From: Mimachlamys varia
Taxonomy: Eukaryota; Mollusca; Bivalvia; Pectinida; Pectinidae
NCBI GenBank assembly: GCA_947623455.1
Contig: OX392529.1
Location: 8,990,001 to 9,054,000 of the forward strand
Reading direction: 5' to 3'
Length of the DNA: 64,000 nucleotides
Below the pieces are notes generated by a model, which was not told the origin of the DNA, did not search any database, and worked only from the letters and a program-made list of their open reading frames with translations. The position numbers and the translations under genes are program-made. Shown here in pieces: positions 15,549 through 58,482 of this stretch; position 1 is the stretch's first letter; every line of letters starts with the position of its first letter.

Positions 15549-15639
15549 ACATGGGTGTAAAATGTGGCGATTGTCTGCGTGAAACTTAATACACTATTTC
15601 GATGTAGCATTATTTCTATAGTTGTAGGTAATTTTAAAT

Positions 15640-17572
15640 AGCATAATAAAATACTATATATTCATATTGATGGCAAATGTATGTCATTATAAAATACTAC
15701 ATATCCATTTTGATGGCAGATGTATGTCATTATAAAATACTACATATCCATTTTGATGGCAGATGTATGGCATAAAATACTATATATTCATATCGATGGC
15801 AGATGTATTACATTATAAAATACTACATATCCATTTTGATGGCAGATGTATGTCATTATAAAATACTATATATTCATTTTGATGGCAGATGTATGGCATT
15901 ATAAAATACTATATATTCATTTTGATGGCAGATGTATGGCATTATAAAATACTATATATTCATTTTGATGGCAGATGTATGGCATTATAAAATACTATAT
16001 ATCCATATTGATGGCAGATGTATGTCATTATAAAATACTATATATTCATTTTGATGGCAGATGTATGGCATTATAAAATACTATATATTCATTTTGATGG
16101 CAGATGTATGGCATTATAAAATACTATATATTCATTTTGATGGCAGATGTATGGCATTATAAAATACTATATATTCATTTTGATGGCAGATGTATGGCAT
16201 TATAAAATACTATATATCCATATTGATGGCAGATGTATGTCATTATAAAATACTATATATTCATTTTGATGGCAGATGTATGGCATTATAAAATACTATA
16301 TATCCATATTGATGGCAGATGTATGTCATTATAAAATACTATGTATCCATATCGACGGCAGATGTATGGCATTATAAAATACTATAATCCATATCGATGG
16401 CAGATGTATGTCATTATAAAATACTACCTATCCACATTGATGGCAGATGTATGGCATTATAAAATGCTATATTTCCACATTGATGGCAGATGTATGGCAT
16501 TATAAAATACTATATATCCACATTGATGGCAGATGTATTGCATTATAAAATACTATATATCCACATTGATGGCAGATGTATGGCATTATAAAATGCTATA
16601 TATTCATATTGATGGCAGATGTATTACATTATAAAATACTACATATCCATTTTGATGGCAGATGTATGGCATTATAAAATACTATATATCCATATTGATG
16701 GCAGATGTATGACATTATAAAATACTACATATCCATATTGATGGCAGATGTATGGCATTATAAAATACTATAATCCACATTGATGGCAGATGTATGTCAT
16801 TATAAAATACTACATATCCATATCGACGGCAGATGTATGGCATTATAAAATACTATAATCCACATTGATGGCAGATGTATGGCATTATAAAATGCTATAT
16901 TTCCACATTGATGGCAGATGTATGTCATTATAAAATGCTATATTTCCACATTGATGGCAGATGTATGTCATTATAAAATACTACATATCCATATCGACGG
17001 CAGATGTATGGCATTATAAAATACTATAATCCACATTGATGGCAGATGTATGTCATTATAAAATACTACATATCCATATCGACGGCAGATGTATGGCATT
17101 ATAAAATACTATAATCCACATTGATGGCAGATGTATGGCATTATAAAATGCTATATTTCCACATTGATGGCAGATGTATGGCATTATAAAATGCTATATT
17201 TCCACATTGATGGCAGATGTATGTCATTATAAAATACTACATATCCATATCGACGGCAGATGTATGGCATTATAAAATACTATAATCCACATTGATGGCA
17301 GATGTTTGGCATTATAAAATGCTATATTTCCACATTGATGGCAGATGTATGGCATTATAAAATACTATATATCCACATTGATGGCAGATGTATTGCATTA
17401 TAAAATACTACATATCCACATTGATGGCAGATGTATGTCATTATAAAATGCTATATATCCACATTGATGGCAGATGTATGGCATTATAAAATGCTATATA
17501 TCCATATTGATGGCAGATATATGGCATTATAAAATACTATATATCCATATTGATGGCAGATGTATGGCATTC
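15640..17572. repeat. 43-bp minisatellite, about 45 copies
   Basis: Units contain GATGGCAGATGTATGGCATT and TATAAAATACTATATAT. There are several subfamilies (TTCATTTTGATGG, CCACATTGATGG, CCATATCGACGG), some one to three bases shorter. It starts about 90 bp after the 36-bp array but is unrelated in sequence. No coding frame persists. Confidence 0.95.
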
Positions 17573-26525: not shown

Positions 26526-27863
26526 CTAGGGGTGTTCCAAAAATAATGTCACTTGCAACGGTGCTCATATAGCGGAAGTGCTTTTGTTCATTTTAATTTG
26601 CTCTGCCCTTCAAAATACTCTCCGCCAGCCAGAACACACCTTTTTAGCCGGTCAATTCATTTTTGGAAGCATTTTTCATACTCTTCAATGGGTACACCCA
26701 TCAGACACTGATAAACAGCAGATCCAAGGGCATTTCTCGAATTGTATCTCCTTCCTGATAAATTATATTTAAGTTTTGGAAAGAGAAAATAGTCGCAGGG
26801 GGCCAAGTCTGGCGAATACGGAGGGTGCGGAAGGACGGTAACCTTCTATGACTCCAAAAAGTCAGTCACAATACGTGCCTTGTGAGCGGGTGCATTATCA
26901 TGCAAAAGTCGCACATACGTAAGTCCTGTTTTGGGGCGGCGACTTTTGTAGTAGTTCTTCAACTTTATCAGAACAACGTTTTTATAGAACTTGCCTGTGA
27001 CCGTTCTGCCTTTTGGCACCGGGATTTGAATAGCTGGACCCTTATTAGTGAAAAAAATAGCACACAAAACCTTCTTTACCGTTCGTATTCGTTTGGCAAT
27101 ACTTGGGCGTCTGGCATTTTTAGTGGCCCATATTCGGTTGGCAGCCTTCCGCTTTGGTTCAAAATAATACACCCAGGTCTCATCACCAGTGACTCTATTA
27201 TCAAAGGCCTTTTTACTATATTTTGGGTACATTTTGAGAAGTTTTTTTGCCATTGTTACACGCGTCTTCTTTGCTCATTCGTTAACAAATGGGGTATCCA
27301 TCTTGCAATTTATCTTTCTAACTTTTAGGTGTTTCTTCAAAATTTCATGAACTCTTGCTAACGACAAGTTTGTCATTCGAGCCAATTGTCTTACGGTGAA
27401 TCGAGCATCAGTTTGGAGGATATTTCGGATTTTTTCTATGTTACCTTTGGTCGTAGTTGTTGCAGGACGACCTGGGTGAGCAGCATCTTTCAGTTGCTGC
27501 TGCCCAGCACTAAATTTACCTACCCACCTACAAACAGTCCTGTGAGACATTTGGCCCTCCCCATAAATGTCACACACCTCGCGGTGAATATCTACAGCCT
27601 TTATGCCGAGTAATGACCTACCTTTTATATAGGCCCTAATTTCAAGAACATTTTCACCTCGTTTTCCTTTGATTTTGTGTCTAGTCTAACGAATGGGCTA
27701 TGGAACGATGTACACTTTACCGAGGCCAGTGAACGTGTGGACGAGATATTTACCTGTGTCACGAGCCAGGGATCACTCAATCGACACGAGGTGGTTTTGT
27801 GCATAAATTGCACGATTTTCGCGAAATAAAGCACAGATGACATTATTTATGGAACACCCCTCG
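26526..27863 (-). mobile_element. mariner element, copy 1, with TA duplication
   Basis: Termini are CTAGGGGTGTTCCAAAAATA at the left and its inverted counterpart ending GGAACACCCCTCG at the right, flanked by TA (26524-26525, 27864-27865). The length of 1338 bp is usual for full-length mariner. The equivalent position in the duplicated block (near 31759, ATCGTATAACTTAG) is an intact empty site, which proves the insertion boundaries. Confidence 0.95.
26588..27673 (-). pseudogene. mariner transposase, inactive copy 1
   Basis: The minus strand encodes an N-terminal helix-turn-helix region ([15 protein letters not shown], then [19 protein letters not shown]) followed by the catalytic domain, with [26 protein letters not shown] and [17 protein letters not shown]. 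The spacing from the second to the third aspartate is 34 residues, the mariner D34D pattern. Damage: the start codon position reads ATC, a frameshift lies near 27260, a TAG follows the FLES segment near 26846, and a TGA replaces tryptophan in QKWIDRLK. It cannot make transposase. Confidence 0.93.
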
Positions 27864-28161
27864 TATAACTTAGTAGTAGGCTGTTCATGTTTGTTCATAG
27901 TTGACGAATATGTTGTGCCCTTTATTTCCTTTAGTTCAGAAGGGTATATGACTCATTATCACAAAAGTTCCAGTTTTAATAGTGAAAACAAAAATCAGAA
28001 AAAAACAACTTTCTTTGACTTACAACTTTTATGATTTAAGTAAAATGGGATACATGCAGTTTACAAAGAAGATGAAGTAACACACACATATGCTGCACAT
28101 TTTTCATTTAATAATAAATACTGTATGCCGCAAAAATGAATTAAACTGTATCATACAGCTG

Positions 28162-28185
28162 TTTCGTCCTTCTAGGACTCTTCAG
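28162..28185 (-). ncRNA. Hammerhead-ribozyme-like core, copy 2
   Basis: On the minus strand CUGAAGA is followed by GUCC-UAGAA-GGAC (a four-pair stem II with five-base loop) and GAAAC, in the order required for a hammerhead. Next comes CUGUAUGAUACAG, able to form a stem-III-like hairpin. Stem I pairing is not obvious. Penelope-like elements are known to carry hammerheads, and retroelement relics lie nearby. Confidence 0.45.
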
Positions 28186-29104
28186 TGATGCTAGGGGCCA
28201 AAATGTGGGAATCCCAACAGTTCTCAACTAATGTAGAAGCAGAAGGGTCAGGTTCGTAAAACACAAGTCATTTAATTTACGACTTAAGAAGTAAACCTAA
28301 ACTGAAAATCATTGTTTGCACATCTGAATGTTTACTAGTTCAGTTACTATTGGTAACGCTAACGATCACAGGTAGTTTAAAAAGTCTGTGTTGTTACTAT
28401 TATTGAATTGTTGTTAGTCTTGGGATAAAATATGTCAGTTCTATGCTAATTGATTTCTTTAATTGATAAAGATTCATAAAATTGGTAATCAATTTGTAAA
28501 CACACAATGCTACAGAAAATTACTGGGTGGCTTATTGTTTCTTTTCAACTTTATTCAATTGAATATCAGCTAATGTTTGTGGTTGTAATATCATGACATG
28601 TTGTCCATTGTGTAACAATTTTAAATACCATGATACATGTATTTTAGTCAATTTCACTATTGGCACTCATCGTTTCCCAGCTGTAGAGAGGCCATTCGTG
28701 ATCACCTGCAATGTCCTGCTGAATAAAACCTGCATGTAACTGAATTATATTTCATCAATATGCATATAAATTATATAGCAATGTGTCCTAAACAAACAAT
28801 TTAATTCATTAACTAAAATATAAATTGGTTGTATATGATGGAAGTTCATATTATGCGTCTTGTCACCCAATTGTCTGTGGTGTTACTAGTGATGTCTTTG
28901 TTATTGTTCAGACAGACTACATGCTTCAATAACTGTCAAACTAATCATAGTACTTACTATGTTGTACATGTAACATAATGCAATAATTTCTTGGGCTTTT
29001 ATATGTTCGTGATATGTTGGAAACAAGTTCTTTCTTGGCGCTCTATTTCCGTGTATTTAAGGTCATTTCCCAAGGTGGGGACTTCGAGAAGCATACTTTG
29101 TATA

Positions 29105-40190: not shown

Positions 40191-41648
40191 CATCATCAAG
40201 CCAAGTGACAATGTTTTTGCTATGGGTAATTAGTTTTCTGGACCAGAACTTTCCCTGGATTGGTATAAACTCCAAACCCAGCATTGAAGGCAACTTACAT
40301 GAAATATACGACATAAAAAACGTTTTCCAAAAAGCACGTTTTATTTATTTTAAAACAGCTGTATATTTACATGTATACATATTCACACAACTGCTTATCT
40401 GTACATCTTTCTCACTGCCCAGGTATCCTCACACTCTAGTCATACACAACTACACTTATCATAGACACCTACACTTCTCCATACTCACCTCACGTCCATC
40501 AATCAAGCACTACACTCTCCAAAATATACCACAGTTACAGCACATCTACCAACCATACAATACACCAAATGATGCTCTGTACAAAAAAAACATAGAATTG
40601 TATTATAAACAAACAATATATAGAATGGTATTCTATAGAAAATCAAATGTAAACAGTCCACATTTAAGACAATAAAATACAAGTTCACCATGCCCCCTGT
40701 TATATAGTATATACCAGGTACATTGTATATTAGGTCCAATATCCTCTTTCCTTTATGAAAGGCTCTCAGTTTATGCTAGGAAAGAACTAAATTCAGTGAA
40801 ATCAAAAGATTGTGAATAGAAAAATTGATTGGTTTATTAAATTATTCCATAGTTCTTGCAAACTTCAATTTGATCATTTCAAAAAAAAATGTAAAATGAA
40901 GTTAAAGATTTTTCCCATGCTATAATGATACAACAAGGAACAGTATTCCAAGTTATCAGTAGTTTCAAACCTGTACAAAGGGTCATAACTCTCCATTTAG
41001 TTGAATACTTCCATCCAAATAGATACCAACTTGCATTCAATTCGATAGTTGTAAGGAAGAGTATACAGAATTTGCTGCTAACAAAAAGTTTTGTGATAAT
41101 AAGGACTGTAACCCTGATAAAGATGGGCACAAGTTTAGATTTCAGTACAGGACACTCTAGTAGATCTGTCTTCCTTAATCATATCCATGAACGGCAAGAG
41201 ATCAAACATTGCTACAATGGCACAGGTTATGTATACCCAGGTACTAATTATTCCACACTCTGAACGCTGACAGCAGAATAACAAGTGGAGAAGTTGTCAG
41301 AACAGCTTTGATGGCATCTCAATATTCGTTTGAAGCAAGGAAACTTTCCAGGGAACCATTCGACCATTTATATATTTATATAATCCCATTCATCCTATGC
41401 AGAAATGCTTTAGTTCAATCTTCTCTGTATAGCACGGATAAAGAAATTGAGAGAGATAGCAAATTAACCATGCTATCACAGATTAGATGAGGGATCATTG
41501 TAAACCTCTCATTCAAATTCACTCAGTGAAAATTAGACTTGCTTCTATTAATGACTCCTGTCCAAAGCATATTCAATCAAGATAATGGGACTGTCAATCA
41601 CCCATCACAACAATGAAACCTGTACAAGAAGTCTTAACAAGAAAATGT
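40191..41648. other. Unique spacer, possible distal 3' UTR of CDC73
   Basis: No gene recognised. On the minus strand AATAAA occurs at 40833-40838 and again near 40341-40350. These are the first such signals I find downstream of the CDC73 stop codon, so the transcript could in principle end here after passing through both arrays. This is inference only. Confidence 0.3.
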
Positions 41649-44517
41649 ACATAGAACTGGGTACATTACAGTAATGTTAGGGACAGCCTCCAGTATCTCA
41701 ATCTACCATTCACCAGATCCCATTCTGTCCTAGTAACATAGAACTTGGAACATTACAGTAATGTTAGGGACAGCCTCCAGTATCTCAATCTACCATTCAC
41801 CAGATCCCATTCTGTCCTAGTTACATAGAACTGGGAACATTACAGTAATGTTAGGGACAGCCTCCAGTATCTCAATCTACCATTCACCAGATCCCATTCT
41901 GTCCTAGTTACATAGAACTGGGAACATTACAGTAATGTTAGGGACAGCCTCCAGTATCTCAATCTACCATTCACCAGATCCCATTCTGTCCTAGTTACAT
42001 AGAACTGGGAACATTACAGTAATGTTAGGGACAGCCTCCAGTATCTCAATCTACCATTCACCAGATCCCATTCTGTCCTAGTTACATAGAACTGGGAACA
42101 TTACAGTAATGTTAGGGACAGCCTCCAGTATCTCCATCTACCATTCACCAGATCCCATTCTGTCCTAGTTACATAGAACTGGGAACATTACAGTAATGTT
42201 AGGGACAGCCTCCAGTATCTCCATCTACCATTCACCAGATCCCATCCTGTCCTAGTTACATAGGACTGAGAACATTACAGTAATGTTAGGGACAGCCTCC
42301 AGTATCTCAATCTACCATTCACCAGATCCCATTCTGTCCTAGTTACATAGGACTGAGAACATTACAGTAATGTTAGGGACAGCCTCCAGTATCTCCATCT
42401 ACCATTCACCAGATCCCATTCTGTCCTAGTTACGTAGAACTGAGAACATTACAGTAATGTTAGGGACAGCCTCCAGTATCTCCATCTACCATTCACCAGA
42501 TCCCATTCTGTACTAGTTACGTAGAACTGAGAACATTACAGTAATGTTAGGGACAGCCTCCAGTATCTCCATCTACCATTCACCAGATCCCATTCTGTCC
42601 TAGTTACATAGAACTGGGAACATTACAGTAATGTTAGGGAGAGCCTCCAGTATCTCCATCTACCATTCACCAGATCCCATTCTGTCCTAGTTACATAGAA
42701 CTGGGAACATTACAGTAATGTTAGGGAGAGCCTCCAGTATCTCCATCTACCATTCACCAGATCCCATTCTGTCCTAGTTACATAGAACTGAGAACATTAC
42801 AGTAATGTTAGGGAGAGCCTCCAGTATCTCAATCTACCATTCACCAGATCCCATTCTGTCCTAGTTACATAGAACTGGGTACATTACAGTAATGTTAGGG
42901 AGAGCCTCCAGTATCTCAATCTACCATTCACCAGATCCCATTCTGTCCTAGTTACATAGGACTGAGAACATTACAGTAATGTTAGGGACAGCCTCCAGTA
43001 TCTCAATCTACCATTCACCAGATCCCATTCTGTCCTAGTTACATAGAACTGAGAACATTACAGTAATGTTAGGGACAGCCTCCAGTATCTCAATCTACCA
43101 TTCACCAGATCCCATTCTGTCCTAGTTACATAGAACTGAGAACATTACAGTAATGTTAGGGACAGCCTCCAGTATCTCAATCTACCATTCACCAGATCCC
43201 ATTCTGTCCTAGTTACATAGAACTGGGTACATTACAGTAATGTTAGGGACAGCCTCCAGTATCTCAATCTACCATTCACCAGATCCCATTCTGTCCTAGT
43301 TACATAGGACTGAGAACATTACAGTAATGTTAGGGAGAGCCTCCAGTATCTCAATCTACCATTCACCAGATCCCATTCTGTCCTAGTTACATAGAACTGA
43401 GAACATTACAGTAATGTTAGGGAGAGCCTCCAGTATCTCAATCTACCATTCACCAGATCCCATTCTGTCCTAGTTACATAGAACTGGGTACATTACAGTA
43501 ATGTTAGGGACAGCCTCCAGTATCTCAATCTACCATTCACCAGATCCCATTCTGTCCTAGTTACATAGAACTGAGAACATTACAGTAATGTTAGGGACAG
43601 CCTCCAGTATCTCAATCTACCATTCACCAGATCCCATTCTGTCCTAGTTACATAGGACTGAGAACATTACAGTAATGTTAGGGACAGCCTCCAGTATCTC
43701 AATCTACCATTCACCAGATCCCATTCTGTCCTAGTTACATAGAACTGAGAACATTACAGTAATGTTAGGGACAGCCTCCAGTATCTCAATCTACCATTCA
43801 CCAGATCCCATTCTGTCCTAGTTACATAGAACTGAGAACATTACAGTAATGTTAGGGACAGCCTCCAGTATCTCAATCTACCATTCACCAGATCCCATTC
43901 TGTCCTAGTTACATAGAACTGGGTACATTACAGTAATGTTAGGGACAGCCTCCAGTATCTCAATCTACCATTCACCAGATCCCATTCTGTCCTAGTTACA
44001 TAGAACTGGGAACATTACAGTAATGTTAGGGACAGCCTCCAGTATCTCAATCCACCATTCACCAGATCCCATTCTGTCCTAGTTACATAGAACTGAGAAC
44101 ATTACAGTAATGTTAGGGACAGCCTCCAGTATCTCAATCCACCATTCACCAGATCCCATTCTGTCCTAGTTACATAGAACTGAGAACATTACAGTAATGT
44201 TAGGGACAGCCTCCAGTATCTCAATCCACCATTCACCAGATCCCATTCTGTCCTAGTTACATAGAACTGAGAACATTACAGTAATGTTAGGGACAGCCTC
44301 CAGTATCTAAATCCACCATTCACCAGATCCCATTCTGTCCTAGTTACATAGAACTGAGAACATTACAGTAATGTTAGGGACAGCCTCCAGTATCTAAATC
44401 CACCATTCACCAGATCCCATTCTGTCCTAGTTACATAGAACTGAGAACATTACAGTAATGTTAGGGACAGCCTCCAGTATCTAAATCCACCATTCACCAG
44501 ATCCCATTCTGTCCTAG
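41649..44517. repeat. 87-bp satellite-like array, about 33 copies
   Basis: Highly uniform 87-bp units without indels. Each contains the exact 17-bp palindrome AACATTACAGTAATGTT (first base variable in some units) and the segment ACCAGATCCCATTCTGTCCT. Variants (ACTGGG/ACTGAG, GGGACAG/GGGAGAG, CTCAATC/CTCCATC/CTAAATC) occur in runs of neighbouring units, indicating local amplification. Confidence 0.96.
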
Positions 44518-45250
44518 TGACAGAGTTGGTAATGAGATCCCATTCTGTCCTTGTGACAGATTTGGTAACAAGATCTCAATCTGCCTGAATAAGTTAGTAG
44601 GTATTAATCAAGATCCCATTCTGTCCTAATAACAAAGGAGGCAACAAGATCCCATTCTGTCCTACTTGCTTAGAAGGTAACAAGATCCCATTCTGTCCTT
44701 CTTGCTTGGAAGGTAACAAGATCCCATTCTGTCCTAGTTATGTAGAAGGTAACAAGATCCCATTCTGTCCTAGTTACGTAGAAAGTAACAAGATCCCATT
44801 CTGTCCTAGTAACATAGTTGGTACCAAGGTCCCATTCTGTCCTAGTTACATAGTTGGTAACAAGATCCCATTCTATCCTAGTTATGTAGAAGGTAACAAG
44901 ATCCCATTCTGTCCTAGTAACGTAGAAGGTAACAAGATTCCATTCTGTCCTAGTTACATAGTTGGTAACAAGATCCCATTCTGTCCTAGTTACATAGTTG
45001 GTAACAAGATCCCATTCTGTCCTAGTTACATAGTTGGTAACAAGATCATATTCTGTCCTAGTTACATAGTTGGTAACAAGATCCCATTCTGTCCTAGTTA
45101 CGTAGAAGGTAACAAGATCCCATTCTGTCCTAGTTACATAGTTGGTAACAAGATCCCATTCTGTCCTAGTTATATAGTTGGTAACAAGGTCCCATTCTGT
45201 CCTAGTTATATAGTTGGTAACAAGATCCCATTCTGTCCTGGTTACATTAT
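44518..45250. repeat. 36-bp array derived from the 87-bp unit
   Basis: About 20 units of 36 bp with AACAAGATCCCATTCTGTCC and TAGTTACATAGTTGG. The first 26 bases or so correspond to the right end of the 87-bp unit, so this is a shortened derivative. The 187-codon plus-strand frame over it is open because of the period. Confidence 0.93.
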
Positions 45251-45403
45251 CTTCTTAATGAGAACTTAACCAGTCATGCTGACACACCGAGACCCAGTCA
45301 GTAACTCTGTCTTGTATAATCCCAGAATGTAACACTAGATCTGTACTGTTAGTATTGAACTCCTGGAGTTTAACAGGGTTGCATTCTTCATGCTATTTCC
45401 TTC

Positions 45404-45440
45404 TCAGTGTCTCAGATGAGGCTTGTGTTTGGCCATGTGC
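45404..45440 (-). CDS. CDC73: CDC73 exon 14, terminal micro-coding exon (residues 531-542)
   Basis: Acceptor TATTTCAG|G followed by [11 protein letters not shown] and TGA at 45406-45404. It matches the conserved C-terminal pattern xMxKHKxHLRx of the family, which is why it was preferred to the TAG beyond exon 13. Confidence 0.9.
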
Positions 45441-48400
45441 CTGAAATAAACCATACATATGTTACAAGTTGTATGTCTTGCTTTTATCAATTTACAGAGA
45501 AAATTGTCCATCAAAAAATGCAGGAAACCATGTTTCTTTTGTGTGGTTTTTACTTTAACATTCCCAGTCAAATAAATTTGTGAAAGCTAATCACTACAAA
45601 TTATGATTGGTATGACTCATTAAACTGGCTGTACATGTAACATAATTATTTTTCACGAAATTTAAGTGCCACAATCTAGCATTGTCGGATACCCACGGTT
45701 GATCTCGCTTCGCTAACTCACTCATCACCCGTGGGCAAACTCGCCAAGAAATCCTCGTAGGTAATTAATATGTACGAAGCATTTGATTGGTTCCAGTGCA
45801 GTTTCGCAATGGATTTTAAACCAATTAGAATTAGCGTTATATAATCTATACGGAAGCATAACCTAGATAAGTAGCACTGTATTGCTCTTGACTTGTTTTT
45901 GAAGTCAAAGACCTGCAAGACTTGTCTTGTATGATTTTTAAACAAAATTCAAAAGACTTAATTGACGCCGCCATCGTTGTGAACACGTCTTCTACTCGCC
46001 GTTTACACACTTTCTCATGGGCACAGCCATTGTTGTGTATGGTGTACCACCAAACGGGTCTTCAACCTGGAGAGTTCCGAATTACATATAAGATTTTCTG
46101 ATTGGTCCGTTCTTATATACGAATTACCATATTTTACGAGGATTTCTCAGCGAGTTTGCCCACGGGTGATGAGTGAGTTAGCGAAGCGAGATCAATTGTG
46201 GGTATCCGACGAAGCAATCTAGTTGTGATGCAGAAATCTGGAAAGTTAGTAACCATGAAAGAGACTTGGTTTAAAGCATAATACATTAGCTTTAGTGTAC
46301 AGTCAACTACACAGTTGGGTATGATGTAAAAGAAATGGATCAATCTATAAAAAGAACAGACATGTGCAGAATGACATTATACTCATCAGAGATCTGGCAG
46401 AGAAGCTGTTATTGAGAAGACATGTAGTCTTTTCATCAGAAATATTACAACTCGCCCAAGATTTTAAAGACAAACACATATGCTTGTTGATCAGGTAAAT
46501 GAAGAAAAACTACTGGATTTTACAGAAAAATAAGACGACCTACTTATCTAGGATCTCCCAGACTTGTTGCAGGTTGGCACGGTCAAGATGGCGCTTGTTT
46601 CTGTCCAAGGAAACAACATACACATCCCACTTCTTCACATTGTTGTCAATGGGCAGTTCTGCCCACTTCAGGTGGAAAGCTTTGACTGTAACATAACAAC
46701 CTTATATAAGACAAGGGGGACTAAATCTTTTACGACTCTTCTACCCGAGACATCAAGTCAGGAAGCATTAAAACATTTAGTGAAATGAAGTAGAGAGAAA
46801 GCCAATGTGCATTAACTGGCCATGCTGTATTTCTCATTAAAAAAACAAACAAACAAACAAAACATGGTAAACATTGTTTTTCTACAATTTGTACATTTCA
46901 TTATATATTTGCGGAGACCCTGTGGAACCCCTAACAAATATGCAAACATACATAATATGCCTGAAAAACTGTATGTCTCACAAGATAAAAATTCTGCAGA
47001 AAGTTATCCATGGTTTCTGATGGTGTAGTGCATTTTTATTTGATGATAATCATAAATATATGTGTCCAAAAGCCCTTTCATATTCCATTAATGTCACAGA
47101 TGATATTTTAAATCAACTGCACTAATTCTTGAGTTTAAGCTAACAATAATTTGATTTTAACAACGAGTATTGTGAATGCACCAATACATTATTGTGCTTA
47201 TCTGTTTAAATTAGGTTATGCACTAAAGTTAATATATTTACAGAAACTTTTGATACCATTTTGACCCAGTCTGTCGGGTTTCATGGGAGTAAGTCATTAA
47301 TCTGTACAAATCTGAATTTCTATAGCCAATGGATTTCAGCACCACAATTGTTATCGCAAAAATCTATGACACAAACAGATACTTACTCCTGGAGAAGATT
47401 TCTACAGGAACGCCATCCCAGGGCCATCCCTTAAACTGCCAGGCCGGTCCTTGTACAAACACTGCTACAACACGGTCCCTAAATGTACAGAAAGGACACA
47501 AATAGAATAGTCATGTTTCCATATCAGTATAAAACACTACAGAGATACATCAGATTACAGATAAAATTAGATAGTGATTACTATTTATTAAAATAGTGAT
47601 CACTGATACAAACAAAAAGGTTTACATATTAACAATTCCAGCAAGTTATTAGTACTTATAAGTTCATGAACATGTAGGATGTAGGATTTACCAGTCGTCC
47701 GGTGAGAGTTTGAGGGGGTTGTCGATGATTCGGTACGGCACAGTCAAGTTGCCAGCCTTACGACGCTGAATCAACACTTCATTGTCACGCTTGGTTCCCT
47801 GTGCCTTCTTCTCTTCTGTGCTGACAAATCTGTGAGGGAAAATTATTAAAATACGTAGTTACACAGTGAATTAAAGACAGCAATGTCCTGGTCATTCAGC
47901 AAATGTCATTAAAATCAACAAGATATTCACTTCTATGGTCAATCCATACTGTTACATTGAGTGTAAGGTACCTGTGATCCTGAAGGATGTCTTTGGCGTT
48001 GAACATGGTGATGATAGAGGTGGTGGCAGCTGGTATAATAATGATTGGTGTCCGAGACCCTGTAAGGTAACATCAGCTTATTATAGTCTAGTGTACATAC
48101 AAATATATATATAATAATGATGGGTGTCCGAGACCCTGTAAGGTAACATCAGCTTATTATAGTCTAGTGTACATACAAATATATAATAATGATGGGTGCC
48201 CGAGACCCTGTAAGGTAACATCAACTTATTATAGTCTAGTGTACATACAAATATATAATAATGATGGGTGTCCGAGACCCTGTAAGGTAACATCAGCGTA
48301 TTATAGTCTACTGTACATACAAATATATAATAATGATGGGTGTCCGATACCCTGTAAGGTTACATCAGCTTATTATAGTCTAGTGTACATACAAATATAT

Positions 48401-51400
48401 AATAATGATGGGTGTCCGAGACCCTGTAAAGTAACATCAGCGTATTATAGCCTAGTGTACATACAAATATATAATAATGATTGGTGTCCGAGACCCTGTA
48501 AGGTAACATCAGCGTATTATAGTCTAGTGTACATATATAATAATGATGGGTGTCCGAGACCCTGTAAGGTAACATCAGCTTACCGGTATTATAGTCTACT
48601 GTACATACAAATATATAATACATTAATTATTTGTGTCAGAAATTCCTCAATGATATAACTGGAAACTGTTTGTCCTCCATAGCACTGAGTCAATGAATGA
48701 CTGCAAAATGCAAAACCTCTAGCCACTAGCATCAGTATAATAACATTTGATCTATAGTATCACTTTCATTTCGTGACAAAAAGTATACATTTCAAGTTCG
48801 ATAAACAAGATTTATAAGCAAAAACCACACACTGCAAAATCATGTATGTCTATAAATGCTTCAAGTCTCTGTAATTATACAATAAAAGCACCTGCCTATA
48901 TAAATACATGTCTACAGTTACAACCTGTCCATGTAAATCGTGTGTCTTATATGTCACTATAAAGACACCTGTGTATATAGCATTATCATACCTGTACTGT
49001 ATTTACTCTAAACTTTAACTGGTTAAATAAACTTCTTCCAATCTTGTTCTTCACTTTGAATGTCAGGTCGCATTAAATTAACATTTGGTCCCATTGCTAC
49101 AGTGCATCAAAATGGAGGTTTGGGCATGAGAGCTGTTATGACTTTTTAAAAAGTTTGTAAAATCGTTTCTCCGGTTTGTATCGGTATAAATAAAACATTT
49201 GAAGTATGGGGTTGAAAGATATAGCAAGTTTCTGGTGTCCCTTGCCCATGCCTATTTCCCTCGGCTTCGCCTTTGGAAATAAACATGGTCTCGGGACGCC
49301 AGAAACTGGCTATATCTCTCAACCCCATACTTTAATTAACTGTATACTAAGACACCTGTCTATATAGCACTAAAACACCTGTCCATGTAAGCCACATGCC
49401 TATATCACTTAAACACCTGGACCCCACTTATTATCAGGATTCCATTTAAACTATGCAGAAGGACCCCATTTATAAAATACTCAGCACGAACCCTGGTTTC
49501 TTGCATTCTTCAGTTCTAAACTACTGGTTTTTTTTTTTCATTTAAGAAAACCTTACATGAAAACTATGCTTGATAAGTGTGTATTAAGACTTTTTTCCTT
49601 TTCGAAAAGTGAATCTCTTGAAAGATTCTCATACATAATAATGATTTGGCCATCTTCTCTGTAAGGTTCTTCAGCACACATACAACCTACCTTTTTTCTG
49701 GTTTGGAGGGGGCCTGGCCTGGGAGACTGGACGAGATCCCGGGGTGACGGGGGTGGAGGGTTGTACTGGGTGATGGGATACATGGTTTTGCTGAGGTGCT
49801 GCATGGCGGCGTGGCTCTCGCTCTTCTATTTTTTTCTGATTGGCTCCGCCTCCTTCTGTCACGAACTTGAGCGTTTTTCCGTGATAGGTTCCCATTGTAT
49901 CAATCTTAAATCCCTCAGTTTCTGTAAAAATATCGACAAATAGATCAATATAAACATCCTAAAATGACATCAATACTTATTCTGGGAATCAAAGTCCCTT
50001 AATTTAATCAACTTATCGATCATCATAACCTTGGGAATACAAAACTATGCATTTAACTGAAGCATTACCATCCAATGGCCACATGGCCATCCCTACAAGA
50101 TCACAATTATTCTATAGCTCATGTCCCATAGGCCTAAATATATATTACTGTATCTAATACTTATTTTTAAGATTTGGATTATTTCCATGAAACTTTGATT
50201 GTGTGGTTGATGAAATTGGTGTGTGGTTGATAAAATTAACACATCAGGAAAAAGCCACATTTACATCAATTACAAATGCACAATTGGCATTAACGGCAGA
50301 CAAAAATGTTTGGGTGATGTAAATTAACATCAAACTAAATATTGGATTTTGTGAGTAAAAATGTATACATATAGTTCCCCTTCAACAGTTTAAAGTTTAA
50401 GTCTAGACAAGATAATCCTGAAAGCTGTGTATACATTTTTATTTTCATCAGAATACCTTAGCACTTATTTAACTTTTATTATATTAGAAGAACTGCCTCC
50501 TGCTGAATTATAACAAGTTTACATTCAGTGAGACACTGACCTTCTTTGCCTTTGAACCTTTCCTGGTCGTATCTGCTGTAAGCAGCTACTGGTGGAACCC
50601 GCTGTTGGGGCTAAAACAGAAAACAGGACCCTTGTGACAACTGCTAAGTAACTCTAGCCAACAAAATACAGACTTATATATCATGACAGTCTCACATTTG
50701 CTTTAAAATGTATATATATGTGAAATCAACACGGCATATAACCTTTTATTAACATTACTTAAAACCAGAAAATAATGTGTTGGTGAAAATAGAAGCATTT
50801 CTATATTTAACTGTTATAAAGCCACTTTTAAGAAAATTTTACTAAATAATTAATTATCGATATTATTCAGAAAAACTTCAGTTATCTAGTAAATCTATTT
50901 TCCATTCATTGTTGAATAAAATAAGTCTCTCAATTAAATGTACTTTTACAACATTTTTCTGTTGGTGTGATGTAACCTACCACCGAAGGTGTGTGGGGTT
51001 CAGTGTGGTGTTTCTCCTTGCCTTCCTCACGCGCCTTTATAGACTGGAGAATGCCAAACACATTGGCGGCAAATGTCTGAAAGAGTACCAAATATTAAAA
51101 AAAGTTTTGCAAAGAGCCTTTTTTCTTTCTCTATTGCATTGAAAAGATACATGTCTATTTTTGCTTGGAAACCAATACATCCAACTTTACCTTATATTAC
51201 CCATGATCAGAACTACAACTCACATGAAAGTTTATTTTAGAAATGTTACAAATTCAAAGTAGGATCACATTATGCACTGTTAATAAAGGTATGATGCATT
51301 GGCTTCATAAGTATGACCTGGATTGCTTGGTTTTTGGGGTTTTTTTTTGCAGTACATATGTAGAGTAATTCATATTAGGAAAATCGGTGAGAATAATATT

Positions 51401-54400
51401 GGTGAATCTTGTGCTGCAGACTTATGAGACTTTTTCATTCCCAGAGAAAAAGGATAGGGAAATTCCAGTAGAAGGTTTTTAAAATTTTGTATATAGCAAG
51501 GCTTCCAAATTTCCCTATCTTACACACTTGGGCGTGGAAAAGTATTTTTCATTTCAATTACGAGAATAATCCCAGAAAACCATGAAAATATGTTTACACT
51601 GGCTAACACTCGGTAAATAACGACATCTCCCCTGAGTGTTTGGAGGAAAACGAATCTGTCAGGGACATATTTAGCATAACCAACATTTGCAAACATTGAT
51701 TACAAAAAAAACCCACTTATTTCCTTTTTTAGATGTGCAAAATAAATGAAGCATAAACACTTTCAATTTCATCATGTCATTTTCATATTGAAGTATCAGA
51801 GTTTGTAATGCCACATCATGTGAATGGATATAACACTCTTTCATATCCAGGGGTGTAAGATAGGGAAATTCATGGGCAAACTCTATCCAACATAGCGATA
51901 TAAAAAATAATTCATGCGACCCTATTTACCCTGGGGGATTTGATCTTCTACCACACACGAGAATGACAGTACCAGTAAATAGAATCTTTTATCAATTTTC
52001 AGTAGAGATAAAGGTGTGTTAACCTATGGGTGTAGATTCTATATTAAACTGCTCTTTTGAGAAAATTTACTGAATGTCAAGTTGACCAAACTGGTAGGTT
52101 GTAAACAAATTTAGTAGTGCCATATTAGTTGTTTAAAGACAGTGTCATGTAAGTTGTTTAACATACCTTTCCATTACTTTGCAAGCTACTGGTTCGAGTC
52201 CGCCAGAGGCGTTCCCTGCTGACGATGTCTCTTGTCACGTCGACTTCAGCCTCTACAAAACTCCTCTGTTCCAGTGCACCTGGTGCCACTTCATCATCCA
52301 CCTTGATCATTGTCCTTTTCTTGGCCAGACGCTTGGCCTTGATGGCTGCAATTTTCTCCAGAGGCATGGCTTCAGGCAGTGACGAACGTCTGAACAACAA
52401 GTTACATTATACCATCGTCATGGCTTCAGGCAGTGACGAACGTCTGAACAACAAGTTACATTATACCATCGTCATGGCTTCAGGCAGTGACGAACGTCTG
52501 AACAACAAGTTACATTATACCATCGTCATGGCTTCAGGCAGTGACGAACGTCTGAACAACAAGTTACATTATACCATCGTCATGGCTTCAGGCAGTGACG
52601 AACGTCTGAACAACAAGTTACATTATACCATCGTCATGGCTTCAGGCAGTGACGAACGTTTGAACAACAAGTTACATTATACCATCGTCATGGCTTCAGG
52701 CAGTGACGAACGTCTGAACAACAAGTTACATTATACCATCGTCATGGCTTCAGGCAGTGACGAACGTCTGAACAACAAGTTACATTATACCATCGTCATG
52801 GCTTCAGGCAGTGACGAACGTCTGAACAACAAGTTACATTATACCATCGTCATGGCTTCAGGCAGTGACGAACGTCTGAACAACAAGTTACATTATACCA
52901 TCGTCATGGCTTCATGTAGTGACGAACGTCTGAACAACAAGTTACATTGTACCATCGTCATAAAATGGAAAATTGAATTTGTTAACACTTTTTCTTATAT
53001 TTACATATTAATACGACAACTTTGCTTTAGTATTTACGTCCCAATATCTTAAGTTTTTTTTATTAGTCAATATTGCTGACTTGCAAGGACGCTAAATGAG
53101 GGAGTGATTCTGCAACTACTTCTTAGTTTATTATTCATTATTTAGTTGAGGCTATTGTATCTATTAAAGATCTCTGTCTTCTGTCTTTATACATTGTTAC
53201 AGTAGCACAGCTGGGCCAGAACACCTGTAGTTATGCTTAATAGCAATTTGTACCAAAAACAGGCATTTTCAACACCAATTTACATTTCTTTTATTTAAAG
53301 AACTTACGACATTTGTTGCAAAACCGAGGTTTCTCTTGTTGCATCAATCTTGTGGATCCAGTTCATTTTAGCATGTTGAACTTGTTCATCCTAAAACAAT
53401 AAGTCCGGCTTTAACAAGATGTTAGGTTACAGGGAATGTAAAATTAGATCGGTCGTTGGTATTTATTCTCAGCCACTGACCATACACTGTGAATAGTCAG
53501 GTATATTATTAGATCTATCATAATAATCTGTATTTAGTATCTTGTGACTTTTATTACTACAGGTAGAATACAAACCTCTAGACGTGGTTTCTTTTTCTTG
53601 TCTGCCTCTCCGCTGTCTTCCGCACCTCTCTTTACTGCAACATTTCAAAATTACTTCATAATGCAGATATTTATTTAAGAAAGGCAACACAAAAAATTAT
53701 GAGGACACAAGGGAAACATAAATAACATCACAAGCAATATAAATCTCCCTTGCATGTCACATATGATTAAGCTCAGATAGCTAATAATGCAAAAGAACTT
53801 TGCTGCAAAGAGGAGGTTGTTGGGCTTATTGCATGATAATGAAATAGCATGAGTTGTCTTCCTCTGAAGAGCAATAGATCATATGAACCGGCTAAGTTGC
53901 ATGCGAGCTTATTGACGGATAAATACTGGTATATCTTGACGCTGACCTTGGCACCCTGAAATATGAACTTGTTCAAGATATTCTCATAGTCATACCTGAT
54001 CACTACATGAAGGTTGATTAAAATCCATTTGAAAATAAAGTCTATGGAGCAGTGACAAAGATTCTCTATGAATAGTAACTATGACTTGCACCCTGAAACA
54101 CAAACTAGTTAAAGGTATTCATATACTTGACAATATATGAAATGATTTATTAGGTCTGTAATTATGCTTATTAAAATGTAAAATACAAGTCAGCACACAG
54201 GAAGGCAAAGATCCCTTTGATATAATCTTACCCTGTGGGGGCCTCTGAAGGGGGATCTCCAAGGGGGCACTCTTGTCAATGCTGGCTGAGGATGTAGTTT
54301 CGCCATTGAGATAGCTAAGCAAATCTTTTCTGTCTGGTCGACGTACCACTGGCACTTCTGCAGCCTAAAAATACAAAATTATGATAACTTATAGATCTAA

Positions 54401-57400
54401 CTAAATAACTTAGAATTAAACAAATGCATTATAAAGGCTTAAATCGCTGAAGGTATTGTTTAGGCAGTTAACAATTAATATGTGTAAAGTTCTAAGGAAT
54501 CTCATTCTGAAAGACATACTCTAGAGTATAAGGATACACAACCAAAAACACATACTTCTGACATGTTTAGCCAATTACAGTAATTCTGCATTGAAATTTC
54601 AATTTTAATTTTGAAACTAACTTTTTAATCTAGTCATAACAGAACATAATAAACTGACACATCCTGTAACAATGCCAGGTAATATTCTTCGACACTATAA
54701 TTTATATACTTACGGCAGCCTCTCTGACATACAGTGGATGCTGTAGGTGAACATTCCTCAGCAGAAACAGTATGCAGTCTAGAGTGTAATACTCTTTGAC
54801 AATCCCATCTTTTCCAGTTCTGATAAAAATATACATAAATGTGACAATATATATTTAATTTTTAACTCTCTATGACATAGTATGTGAGTCTCTTCTGTTG
54901 AACATGATATATAAATGTGACTTTTTTCATAATGGTTATGTACGAGGGGTGTTCCAAAAATAATGTCACTTGCAACGGTGCTCATATAGCGGAAGTGCTT
55001 TTGTTCATTTTAATTTGCTCTGCCCTTCAAAATACTCTCCGCCAGCCAGAACACACCTTTTTAGCCGGTCAATCCATTTTTGGAAGCATTTTCCATACTC
55101 TTCAATGGGTACACTCATCAGACACTGATGAACAGCAGATCCAAGGGTATTTCTCGAATTGTATCTCCTTCCAGATAAATGATATTTAAGTTTTGGAAAG
55201 AGAAAATAGTCGCAGGGGGCCAAGGCTGGCGAATATGGAGGGTGCGGAAGGACAGTAACCTTCTCTGACTCCAAAAAGGTAAGTCACAATTAATACGTGC
55301 CTTGTGAGCGGCCGGTGCATTATCATGCAAAAGTCGGACATGCTTACTTAAGTCCTGTTTTGGGGCGGCGACTTTTGTAGTAGTTCTTCAACTTTCTCAG
55401 AACAACGTTTTTATAGAACTTGCCTGTGGCCGTTCTGCCTTTTGGCACCAGGATTTGAATAGCTGGACCCTTATTAGTGAAAAAATAGCATACAAAACCT
55501 TCTTTACCGTTCGTATTCGTTTGGCAATACTTGGGCGTCTGGCATTTTTAGTGGCCCATATTCGGTTGGCAACTTTCCGCTTTGGTTCAAAATAATACAC
55601 CCAGGTCTCATCACCAGTGACTATATTTTCAAAAGCTTTTTTACTATATTTTGGGTACATTTTGATAAGGTTTTTTTTGCCATTGTTACACGCGTCTTCT
55701 TTTGCTCATCTGTTAACAAATGGGGTATCCATCTTGCATTTATCTTTCTAACTTTTAGGTGTTTCTTCAAAATTGCATGAACTCTTGCTAACGACAAGTT
55801 TGTCATTCGAGCCAATTGTCTTACGGTGAATCGAGCATCAGTTTGGAGGATATTTCGGATTTTTTCTATGTTACCTTTGGTCGTAGTTGTTGCAGGACGA
55901 CCTGGGTGAGCAGCATCTTTCAGTTGCTGCTGCCCAGCACTAAATTTACCTACCCACCTTCAAACAGTCCTGTGAGACATTTGGCACTCCCCATAAATGT
56001 CACACACCTCGCGGTGAATATCTACAGCCTTTATGCCGAGTAATGACCTACCTTTTATATAGGCCCTAATTTCAAGAACATTTTCAGCTCGTTTTCCTGT
56101 CATTTTGTGTCTGTAGTCTAACAAATAGGCTATGAAACGATGTACACTGTACCGAGGCCAGTGAATGTGTGGACGAGATATTTACCTGTGTCATGAGCCA
56201 GTGATCACTCAATCGACACGAGGTGGTTTTGTGCATAAATTGCACAATTTCCACGAAATAAAGCACAGATGACATTATTTATGGAACACCCCTCGTAATT
56301 TTGTCCAGTTTTAGTGTACTACACAAATACAAATTTTGTGGAATGTGCTATATAAGTACAGGTACTATTCCAGTCAGACATGACTTTGACATGAGCAAAC
56401 CTGAGCACATACTTTAATTTGCATACCATGGCATATTTCTTATCTATGGTGTAAGCATTAATTACATGAAGGTTGTGTGTATCATTTGTATGATTGACAG
56501 CATAGATAAATAATGCTTGCTAAGAAAAAATGTGTCGTTTTATGTTTATGCCGATATTAAGTGTCATAATTTTGCCTTGACAAACGCTTTGACTAAAGGA
56601 AAATTTCTATCTACATACCTCCTTCAGCATACTGAAGATTACATTGATACATTCATAATAATGGTGTTTGCTTCATGTATCTATACAAGTGGGGGGGGGG
56701 GGGGGGGGGGGGACTTAATTTAAGGAATTTCGAAATATATAATATTCGCCTTGGCACGTATTAAAATATATTAACTTGGGCGACATATGCAAGTACTCTC
56801 AACTTCCACATTATCTAGGTGGTAATTATTGCTCTACAGAGCTAATGTTTTCATTGTTACAACACTAACTAAAAATGTGTCTAATTCTTATAAACGCTTA
56901 GTACAAATATTAATACCCTGCCTCCTATGACTCTGCCCCGGCCGGGTATTAAATTGGCCCCATGCCTTGTAATGGAGCAAGCCCGGTGTGATTCACACCA
57001 GGGCGATTTTTGCACCACTTATGAAGTTATCGCCAGATTGGTTCTCATCGATAAATATACTTAAACTATAAACCGTTTCTGTCAATCTCCTACCTAACTT
57101 CTAATTAAAATCCATCTAAAATATTGTTAATTATGAAGTTTACATAAGAAGCATAATCTGAGATGAGCAGCGGCAGCCATGATTTAAGACTTCAGTAAAT
57201 TTCTTGGTTTCTTTTCTGAAGTGTTCCTCTAAATTTGTGAATTGGCGCGTGCGGAACAAATAAGGAAGTCGTCCAGTAACCATATTTGGCGATATACATA
57301 TAAAAACGAGATTTGAGATAACATATCGCACGTTAACTGTCATGGCGGTAGTTTCTTGTGTTTTTCAAGAAGGATATTTCTGGTTCTGCTAATTTTGTGA

Positions 57401-57995
57401 TTTTTTTTTCTTTTATATCATGGTAAACACTCGATATTTCAGCATCCCTGCATTCTTTGAACAACATTATGCTCACATGTGAGGTGGTAATTAAATGAAA
57501 TCTTACAGACTGAACATTTTTGATTTTGTTCCACTACCAGACATCGGACCGCTTCGTAGCTCTATACGACGCAATATATTAAAAACAAAAATGTCTCGTC
57601 GTGAAGAGCTACGTTTTCGCAGCTAATATACGCTTAGATCTTGTATCATGGGGTGTTGGACAGACAGCTTACATTATCTACATTGTTCCGTATACAAATC
57701 AGATCTATTTATATCATTAACTGAAATATTATGAGGTATTGATAGTGGTAAATTTTTCATTTGATCGAAAATTGTGCAATATGCATGCATGTCAATGTAG
57801 TATGTACTGTACAGTACAGTGAGCTATAATTTGGTATTAAATATAACATAATAATCATACTTACCCCCATACGACATAGTTAGTCTTCACATTGGATGGC
57901 CATGCAAGTTCACCAAAAATGACCTGGTCGTCCTTCTCGATGATTTCTTTCTTGTTGATATTGTATTGACGAACTAAACTCAATACATCCGCCAT
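45404..57995 (-). CDS. CDC73: Parafibromin / PAF1 complex subunit CDC73
   Basis: CDC73 is a nuclear subunit of the PAF1 complex, which travels with RNA polymerase II and promotes elongation and histone modification. Fourteen exons join in phase to 542 residues (human protein 531): 57995-57865, 54819-54714, 54364-54232, 53634-53576, 53390-53308, 52389-52167, 51076-50981, 50610-50541, 49921-49691, 48059-47972, 47829-47692, 47478-47387, 46685-46544, 45440-45404. The start [18 protein letters not shown] marks the N-terminal domain. The basic stretch KKKKPR near 137-142 is a likely nuclear signal, [16 protein letters not shown] is the near-invariant central segment, and [13 protein letters not shown] opens the C-terminal Ras-like domain. 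All introns are GT/AG. Introns hold a mariner, two MITEs or hairpins and two acceptor-anchored minisatellites. The 3' UTR end is not clear. Confidence 0.96.
45680..46214. mobile_element. hAT-like MITE in CDC73 intron 13
   Basis: A 535-bp element with inverted ends of about 70 bp (GTCGGATACCCACGGTTGAT at the left; the right copy reads ...CAATTGTGGGTATCCGAC) and an exact 8-bp duplication CAATCTAG at 45672-45679 and 46215-46222. The arms contain GATCTCGCTTCGCTAACTCA. No transposase is encoded. Confidence 0.88.
46544..46685 (-). CDS. CDC73: CDC73 exon 13 (residues 484-531)
   Basis: Encodes [20 protein letters not shown], then [18 protein letters not shown] and LQQVWEILD. The exon ends GATAA|GTAGGT; reading through the donor would give a lysine and then a TAG stop. 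Confidence 0.93.
47387..47478 (-). CDS. CDC73: CDC73 exon 12 (residues 453-484)
   Basis: Encodes [20 protein letters not shown] and [10 protein letters not shown]. The [15 protein letters not shown] core is conserved; the following loop is shorter than in human. Confidence 0.95.
47692..47829 (-). CDS. CDC73: CDC73 exon 11 (residues 407-453)
   Basis: Encodes [20 protein letters not shown], then [20 protein letters not shown] and KLSPDDW. The loop between QRRK and VPYR is shorter than in human. Donor GTAAAT. Confidence 0.94.
47972..48059 (-). CDS. CDC73: CDC73 exon 10 (residues 378-407)
   Basis: Encodes [20 protein letters not shown] and NAKDILQDH, the start of the C-terminal Ras-like domain. 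The acceptor TTACCTTACAG and the first 26 coding bases are repeated upstream in the 72-bp array. Confidence 0.95.
48034..48619. repeat. 72-bp minisatellite spanning the intron 9/exon 10 acceptor, 8 units
   Basis: On the CDC73 strand each unit carries GATGTTACCTTACAG followed by GGTCTCGGACACC. The first unit overlaps exon 10 by 26 bases; seven more lie in the intron, all with AG intact. One unit is about 7 bp shorter and one has an extra CCGG-containing insertion. Each unit also has GTATGT, a donor-like hexamer. Confidence 0.95.
49202..49332. repeat. 131-nt fold-back in CDC73 intron 9
   Basis: Arms starting AAGTATGGGGTTGAAAGATA and its inverted copy pair over about 40 bp, and the inner parts (CCTATTTCC and GGAAATAAACATGG) continue the pairing. 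Probably a MITE. No clear target duplication. Confidence 0.72.
49691..49921 (-). CDS. CDC73: CDC73 exon 9 (residues 301-378)
   Basis: Encodes [20 protein letters not shown], a Q/H/P-rich linker, and [14 protein letters not shown], which matches the human protein. The linker is longer than in human. Acceptor TTTTTACAG, donor GTAGGT. Confidence 0.95.
50541..50610 (-). CDS. CDC73: CDC73 exon 8 (residues 278-301)
   Basis: Encodes [20 protein letters not shown] and GKE. The [14 protein letters not shown] segment is conserved in animals. Donor GTCAGT, phase 1. Confidence 0.93.
50981..51076 (-). CDS. CDC73: CDC73 exon 7 (residues 246-277)
   Basis: Encodes [20 protein letters not shown], the conserved segment after the central motif, and an H/E/P-rich tail. 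Phase 0 on both sides, donor GTAGGT. Confidence 0.94.
52167..52389 (-). CDS. CDC73: CDC73 exon 6 (residues 171-245)
   Basis: Encodes [20 protein letters not shown], a [16 protein letters not shown] stretch, and the highly conserved [20 protein letters not shown]. The acceptor TTGTTGTTCAG|ACG and the first 25 coding bases are the first unit of a 54-bp tandem array running back into intron 5. Only this copy continues into the exon body. Confidence 0.95.
52365..52959. repeat. 54-bp minisatellite spanning the intron 5/exon 6 acceptor, 11 units
   Basis: Eleven nearly identical 54-bp units. On the CDC73 strand each has a TGTAAC branch-like motif, TTGTTGTTCAG, then ACGTTCGTCACTGCCTGAAG. The unit at the exon is the functional splice site. 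Nine further units keep the AG; the sixth (AG position 52660-52661) reads CAA. The 275-codon plus-strand frame over the array is a by-product of the period. Confidence 0.95.
53308..53390 (-). CDS. CDC73: CDC73 exon 5 (residues 144-171)
   Basis: Encodes [20 protein letters not shown] and TSVLQQM, then two bases of the next codon before GTAAGT. It is less conserved than its neighbours. Confidence 0.9.
53576..53634 (-). CDS. CDC73: CDC73 exon 4 (residues 124-143)
   Basis: Short exon encoding [20 protein letters not shown], bipartite basic clusters in the position of the known nuclear localisation signal. Acceptor TTGCAG, donor GTTTGT. Confidence 0.92.
54232..54364 (-). CDS. CDC73: CDC73 exon 3 (residues 80-124)
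   Basis: Encodes [19 protein letters not shown] and [19 protein letters not shown], close to the human sequence in this region. It ends one base into a codon at GGTAAGA. Confidence 0.95.
54714..54819 (-). CDS. CDC73: CDC73 exon 2 (residues 44-79)
   Basis: Encodes [20 protein letters not shown] and [14 protein letters not shown], part of the N-terminal domain. Acceptor TTATCAG, donor GTAAGT. Intron 1 (3045 bp) holds the second mariner. Confidence 0.95.
54943..56295 (-). mobile_element. mariner element, copy 2, in CDC73 intron 1
   Basis: A 1353-bp element with termini CGAGGGGTGTTCCAAAAATA and the inverted counterpart, flanked by TA (54941-54942, 56296-56297). It is closely related to the copy at 26.5-27.9 kb and lies in the same orientation as the host gene. 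Confidence 0.95.
55005..56103 (-). pseudogene. mariner transposase, inactive copy 2
   Basis: Starts with an intact ATG at 56103 ([19 protein letters not shown]), followed by the helix-turn-helix region and [14 protein letters not shown]. Several frameshifts break the frame: near 55680, near 55440, and around [11 protein letters not shown], where an extra alanine codon and shifts appear. The last part, [16 protein letters not shown] then [13 protein letters not shown] and [10 protein letters not shown], is intact to a TGA at 55005. SPAL replaces the usual SPDL. Its damage differs from that of copy 1, so each decayed independently. Confidence 0.92.
56690..56712. repeat. Poly-G tract in CDC73 intron 1
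   Basis: Uninterrupted run of about 23 G on the plus strand (C on the transcribed strand). Its length may be inexact because of sequencing. Confidence 0.85.
57865..57995 (-). CDS. CDC73: CDC73 exon 1 (residues 1-44)
   Basis: ATG at 57995 starts [18 protein letters not shown] and the exon ends ...TNYVVWG at a GTAAGT donor, phase 2. The start is fixed by alignment with the conserved N-terminus of the family. Confidence 0.95.
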
Positions 57996-58482
57996 GGTGG
58001 GTAAAATAGTAGTGTAGTGTACGACCTAAGACCCCTGTGAAGTTCGCAGCGATTGGCTGAAAGAAAGCAAAGGCGATGTATCACTCTTGCTCATTGGTCA
58101 TTAAAAATAGAAAAAGAAAGTAACCGTGTCCACTTCCAAACTGTCTACTATGTTTATATCCTGTAACATATGTTTGTGTGCAAATTGTACGTTTTTCCTT
58201 TAATGAAGCTTAACAACATCACTGACTTGAATGAAAATATTTATTCAGACTGTACCTACAGTTTTCGAGAATAAAATACCTCCAATGGTGGTGACTATAA
58301 GCGGAAATGGTCGAATACTCTTTAACTCAAAGTAAATGAAAACAACAAAAATATGTTAAACGTAAACAAATTTCTTTTCGAAAATATCAGAATATCACAT
58401 TTCCAAAAAAATACTGAAGATACGTCATTGCTTTGATAAACGTATGTAATATATTTATGTTTCCTTCCTTTTCACATTCAAA
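57996..58482. promoter_or_regulatory. Bidirectional CDC73/PGLS promoter interval
   Basis: 487 bp separate the two divergent start codons. ATTGG (CCAAT on the CDC73 strand) occurs at 58052-58056 and 58093-58097. The PGLS start lies in AAAATGGCGGCG, which resembles a YY1-type initiator motif. No TATA box is evident on either side. Promoter function is inferred from arrangement. Confidence 0.55.

Follow-up and report, generated by a model that had tools for sequence, protein, structure and literature searches.

Two tandem arrays repeat the splice acceptors of exons 6 and 10 in the CDC73 gene of the bivalve Mimachlamys varia

In CDC73 of Mimachlamys varia two tandem arrays repeat the end of an intron together with the beginning of the following exon, one at the acceptor of exon 6 (array 1) and one at the acceptor of exon 10 (array 2). 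Together, the two ladders hold 19 acceptor units, 18 of which possess the AG, including 16 of the 17 intronic copies. With a probability of roughly 0.8, we consider these arrays to be two mirages, the term used for arrays of this kind in the lancelet, which would have arisen by tandem duplication between short direct repeats, have subsequently expanded and are tolerated through a preference for the acceptor nearest to the exon's own donor. A sequence-only reading of the window, the whole stretch of 64,000 nucleotides analysed here, had described the ladder at exon 6, which is no lone oddity, as array 2 adds another one to CDC73. The positions of the features are collected in Table 1.

Table 1. 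CDC73 and its acceptor arrays in the window (a slash marks a splice boundary)
Feature	Positions	Strand	Description	Source
CDC73 coding span	45404..57995	minus	stop codon included, at 45404	tblastn pieces and exon model
Exon 5	53308..53390	minus	donor TGTC/GTAAGT	exon model
Exon 6	52167..52389	minus	223 nt; acceptor TTGTTGTTCAG/ACG, donor AAAG/GTATGT	exon model
Exon 10	47972..48059	minus	88 nt; acceptor CCTTACAG/GGTCTCGG	exon model
Array 1, exon 6 acceptor ladder	52365..52961	minus	11 x 54 bp and 3 bp of a further unit	TRF, unit listing
True exon-proximal unit of array 1	52365..52418	minus	first 25 nt of exon 6 at 52389-52365, intron end of 29 nt at 52418-52390	
Intronic unit of array 1	52635..52688	minus	single change, acceptor AG to AA	unit listing
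Intron-distal unit of array 1	52905..52958	minus	differs at three sites, -20 of the intron end and two in the exon-like part; AG retained	unit listing
Array 2, exon 10 acceptor ladder	48034..48620	minus	units of about 72 bp; true site and seven intronic copies	TRF, tblastn

The arrays reside in a complete coding region for CDC73 (parafibromin) with 14 coding exons, 13 GT-AG introns and an unbroken frame of 542 residues, the exon ends having been placed by hand on tblastn pieces. In the predicted protein, Pfam recognizes CDC73_N at residues 1-295 (417.7 bits, cut-off 27) and CDC73_C at residues 379-532 (183.3 bits, cut-off 32.8), and exon 6 by itself aligns with residues 172-243 of human parafibromin. 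The gene, its strand and the exon boundary given by the sequence-only reading are thereby borne out, and its name 'exon 6' holds for the gene's own coding exons. According to tblastn, exon 12 (47387-47478) misses three residues of the stretch WPWLLPDG of the human protein. No AATAAA or ATTAAA occurs within 3000 bases past the stop codon, while long arrays of 87 bp x 33 (98% alike) and 36 bp x 21 at 41648-45247 stop 156 bp downstream of it. Introns 5, 6, 9 and 10 span 918, 1090, 1631 and 142 nt, respectively. The summed coding length amounts to 131 at junction 1, 237 at junction 2 and 512 at junction 5, and the human gene is described with junctions at c.131+1, c.237+1 and c.513-1, the latter being intron 6/exon 7 in human numbering in the part of the source available (PMC5698716), which corresponds to intron 5/exon 6 in the coding-exon count used here. 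As these coding positions match, the exon 6 boundary looks old and conserved, and would be common to human CDC73.

Array 1 begins inside exon 6 and extends into intron 5, with 10 of its 11 units intronic; on the gene strand the unit reads ACGATGGTATAATGTAACTTGTTGTTCAG/ACGTTCGTCACTGCCTGAAGCCATG, a 29-nt intron end followed by a 25-nt exon start. Tandem Repeats Finder (TRF) reports a period of 54, 11.1 copies and 99% matches, and the self-identity at a shift of 54 (0.991) lies so far above the highest value among 1000 base-shuffled versions of this stretch (0.317) that the periodicity is not due to chance; both results, together with the intact gene model, agree with the array as originally described. 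Mean pairwise identity of the units over the ungapped stretch compared is 0.987, and nine of the 11 units, among them the exon-proximal one, are identical. The composition of the unit had been read correctly, down to a TGTAAC motif in all 11 units, but the acceptor AG, attributed to every unit, is present in 10 of 11 (true copy included), the unit at 52635-52688 having AA. Equally, the nine complete intronic look-alikes that had been counted stand as far as the AG is concerned (9/10), whereas a match with the true copy across the full 54 bp is found for 8/10. The ten acceptors with AG are identical across the last 19 intron nucleotides, and nine of these across all 54 bp. A reading of array 1 as a coding minisatellite was dropped, with 25 nt alone being coding. 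On the plus strand, antisense to CDC73, an open frame of 296 aa (52162-53052) runs through the array, as the 54-bp period is a multiple of three.

The first sign of array 2 was the peptide GSRTPIIII, which recurred upstream of exon 10 in the tblastn table. This array (TRF period 72, 8.1 copies, 91% matches) has its true acceptor at 48059 and retains the AG in all seven intronic copies and thus in 8/8 units, with copy spacings of 66, 72 (five times) and 76. Its units vary through substitutions and indels, with a mean pairwise identity of 0.896 over the ungapped stretch, a value lowered by the length change in one unit. The entry into the intron is a design common to both arrays, which start 25-26 nt within the exon and place an acceptor in every unit position. 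Among the 26 CDC73 junctions tested, acceptors 6 and 10 alone have repeated copies within the window; five other junctions with a single match of 13-17 nt each were taken as chance.

Since they lie upstream of the true exons, the decoy copies are intronic and do not alter the protein provided that splicing goes to the exon-proximal acceptor, which we think is the case in most CDC73 transcripts. Splicing to a decoy, on the other hand, would lead to an early stop and probably to loss of the transcript. All 10 intronic copy positions of array 1 are in frame with the true acceptor and meet an in-frame TAA 11.3 codons in (a split codon and 11 further codons, earlier given as 12), located 240 to 726 nt ahead of the end of the lengthened exon. 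In array 2, six copies lead to TAG after 11.7 or 13.7 codons, and the nearest copy, 76 bp upstream, shifts the frame towards a TGA in the next exon, so that an early stop is predicted at 17/17 intronic copy positions of both arrays. The earlier designation of array 1 as a ladder of poison acceptors stands for the reading frame and, with one intronic unit being without AG, not for every rung; the poison-acceptor ladder in CDC73 is a prediction from sequence.

How the true sites might be chosen was approached with a small acceptor matrix built from 11 other CDC73 acceptors. The true acceptor of exon 6 scores -0.9, a value reached or surpassed by 16% of the 6686 AGs in the window, and in the stretch scored three AGs outside the array beat it, at 53109 (5.6), at 52345 within exon 6 (1.1) and at 53180 (-0.4). 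The true acceptor of exon 10 scores 6.8 and is exceeded by three AGs at 7.5, two of them decoys and the third outside the array. As both true sites are outscored by other AGs in this matrix, the choice is not accounted for by the strength of the local acceptor signal, and as the decoys of array 1 share the local signal, discrimination must lie there in position or in sequence beyond the unit. Local RNA pairing at the copies showed nothing in favour of the true copies, the true site of exon 6 even being the most paired of its series, in an estimate that is unreliable since some values fall below zero. The true sites yield the shortest exons, 223 nt for exon 6 and 88 nt for exon 10, and the lengths of the flanking introns make exon definition plausible in the case of exon 6, and for exon 10 they allow it. 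With the exon as the recognized unit, near-equal acceptors would be told apart by their distance to the donor of that exon, and the nearest one, followed by the complete exon body, would win. An older rule, which gives precedence to the upstream member of a pair of 3' sites (work of Reed and Maniatis, in the summary of PMC9225289), would pick a decoy in CDC73 and counts against the exon-proximal choice. The accessible part of PMC9225289 likewise finds an overall upstream preference for 3' sites, which is, however, significantly reduced in the exon-definition class for sites of like strength at least 20 nt apart; its cross-exon proximity rule comes from a minigene test on 5' sites in a human context.

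The overall upstream preference would equally suit a reading in which a sizeable fraction of transcripts uses the upstream copies, stops early and decays, with array length setting CDC73 output. The AG in 16 intronic copies and the early stop at every intronic position fit such wastage, as does a junction-spanning repeat of human CBS, for which the excerpted source has more repeats accompanied by lower enzyme activity. We nevertheless hold this unlikely. Within the portions of the reports at hand, other mirages splice normally, namely those in Adh3 and globin genes of the lancelet, which are reported to leave regular splicing intact (PMC3087553), and those in Adh and TnC, of which the same is said (PMC3902484). 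Furthermore, the arrays bear no sign of selection for decoys, and the sole change among ten uniform units of array 1 destroys an AG, a single event and no proof. Regulatory tuning of CDC73 by copy number is possible but unsupported, and still less probable than plain wastage is the wider proposal that a process seeds acceptor copies in the lineage, that the number of poison acceptors sets the waste and that germline or somatic copy change alters CDC73 output at both junctions.

It is very improbable that new exons or introns are recruited from the units through uptake of cryptic signals, a model proposed for lancelet globins in the excerpts of PMC3087553. AG and GT-like motifs do occur in the units, but against a donor matrix built from the 13 true CDC73 donors, which score 6.6 to 13.0, the best array matches reach 6.2 and 4.8, and aligned with human CDC73 the predicted protein has no repeat-derived insert at either junction. 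Decoys as cassette micro-exons were rejected with the same matrix, GAC/GTTCGT (6.2, array 1) and CCG/GTAAGC (4.8, array 2), the best among the 14 matches listed per array, being under every true donor. An assembly artefact that inflated one or few real units is hardly to be expected either. The near uniformity of array 1 would suit it, as would precedents in excerpts on the lancelet, in which repeat numbers vary between assemblies for PGBD5, described along with TnC as carrying a mirage (PMC3902484), and the BflGb6 draft was called aberrantly assembled (PMC3087553). Against it, both arrays contain variant units, those of array 2 with substitutions and indels, and further arrays of like kind exist in the window.

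For the preferred reading of two tolerated mirages, the array ends give a hint at the mode of origin. Read from the flanks, ATG (3 nt) recurs at both ends of array 1 and TATTATA (7 nt) at those of array 2, which fits a duplication between short direct repeats, while their very shortness is a point against a direct-repeat origin. The stretch of intron end and exon start may thus have been duplicated in tandem, and the units would then have been expanded and homogenised through slippage or unequal exchange. In both arrays the intron-distal unit is the most divergent, with three substitutions in array 1 and, in array 2, a slight difference in length, and for BflGb6 the consulted part of the report describes that cluster boundaries escape homogenisation (PMC3087553). 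Unit identity makes array 1 look the younger of the two, or the one homogenised more recently. The chance that a random unit in the coding span covers an acceptor is 0.054 for 54 bp and 0.071 for 72 bp, and 0.109 and 0.144, respectively, for any junction. As array 1 was chosen for this very feature, array 2 is the sole fair draw, and with 0.07 to 0.14 for array 2 the enrichment of arrays at acceptors is weak; a third TRF row within the gene, 1.9 copies of 20 bp in intron 8 (50200-50237), away from junctions, was left out of this sum.

The surrounding DNA is minisatellite-rich in general, as 13 array blocks, merged from TRF rows, take up 25% of the window. Two big adjoining minisatellites, 36 bp x 74 and 43 bp x 45 by TRF, occupy 12895-17571. 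A scan for other genes with junction arrays in the window covered 20 of the 120 open reading frames of at least 60 aa outside the arrays and outside 45300-58100, and returned transposase families and one reverse transcriptase match under the cut-off. The former include a minus-strand remnant of a Mariner-like transposase at 26849-27685 (PF01359, PF17906), the latter is the weak match at 10444-10881 on the minus strand, below the Pfam threshold. A type I hammerhead ribozyme match (35.2 bits, cut-off 34) lies at 28148-28191, also on the minus strand.

That a single gene of a core transcription complex harbours two junction arrays is notable, and raises the question of how frequent junction-spanning arrays are genome-wide. 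In array 1 in particular, the effects of position and exon context can be told from that of local signal strength, which makes it a natural test of acceptor choice, able to decide between an upstream-first rule and a rule of proximity to the exon's donor.

Junction-spanning arrays are already known in kind, and judged by their sequence the CDC73 arrays fit the mirages in structure. Literature searches, with queries other than CDC73 combined with repeats, listed no junction array in CDC73. In the available parts of the lancelet reports, the mirages of Adh3, the globins BflGb6 and BflGb9, TnC and PGBD5 also have a unit that spans the intron-exon boundary, with splice signals likewise retained in many units, and the BflGb6 unit couples the intron 3' end with the 5' part of the exon as in the arrays described here; in contrast, the gene is a different one and CDC73 carries two acceptor ladders at once. 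In humans, as far as the excerpted sources go, the CBS repeat c.1444_1467+7(16_21) is equally boundary-spanning, with a copy number that varies, but lies on the donor side and has a 31-bp unit. CBS c.844_845ins68 duplicates the intron 7/exon 8 junction in two copies only, where splicing strongly prefers the site lying further distal and yields normal mRNA, and a variable repeat in FAM20C, which spans an intron-exon junction too, is said to affect alternative splicing. Finally, competing 3' splice sites were already set against each other in the constructs of Reed and Maniatis (1986), as PMC9225289 summarises them; those were made in the laboratory, whereas CDC73 offers natural series of 11 and 8.
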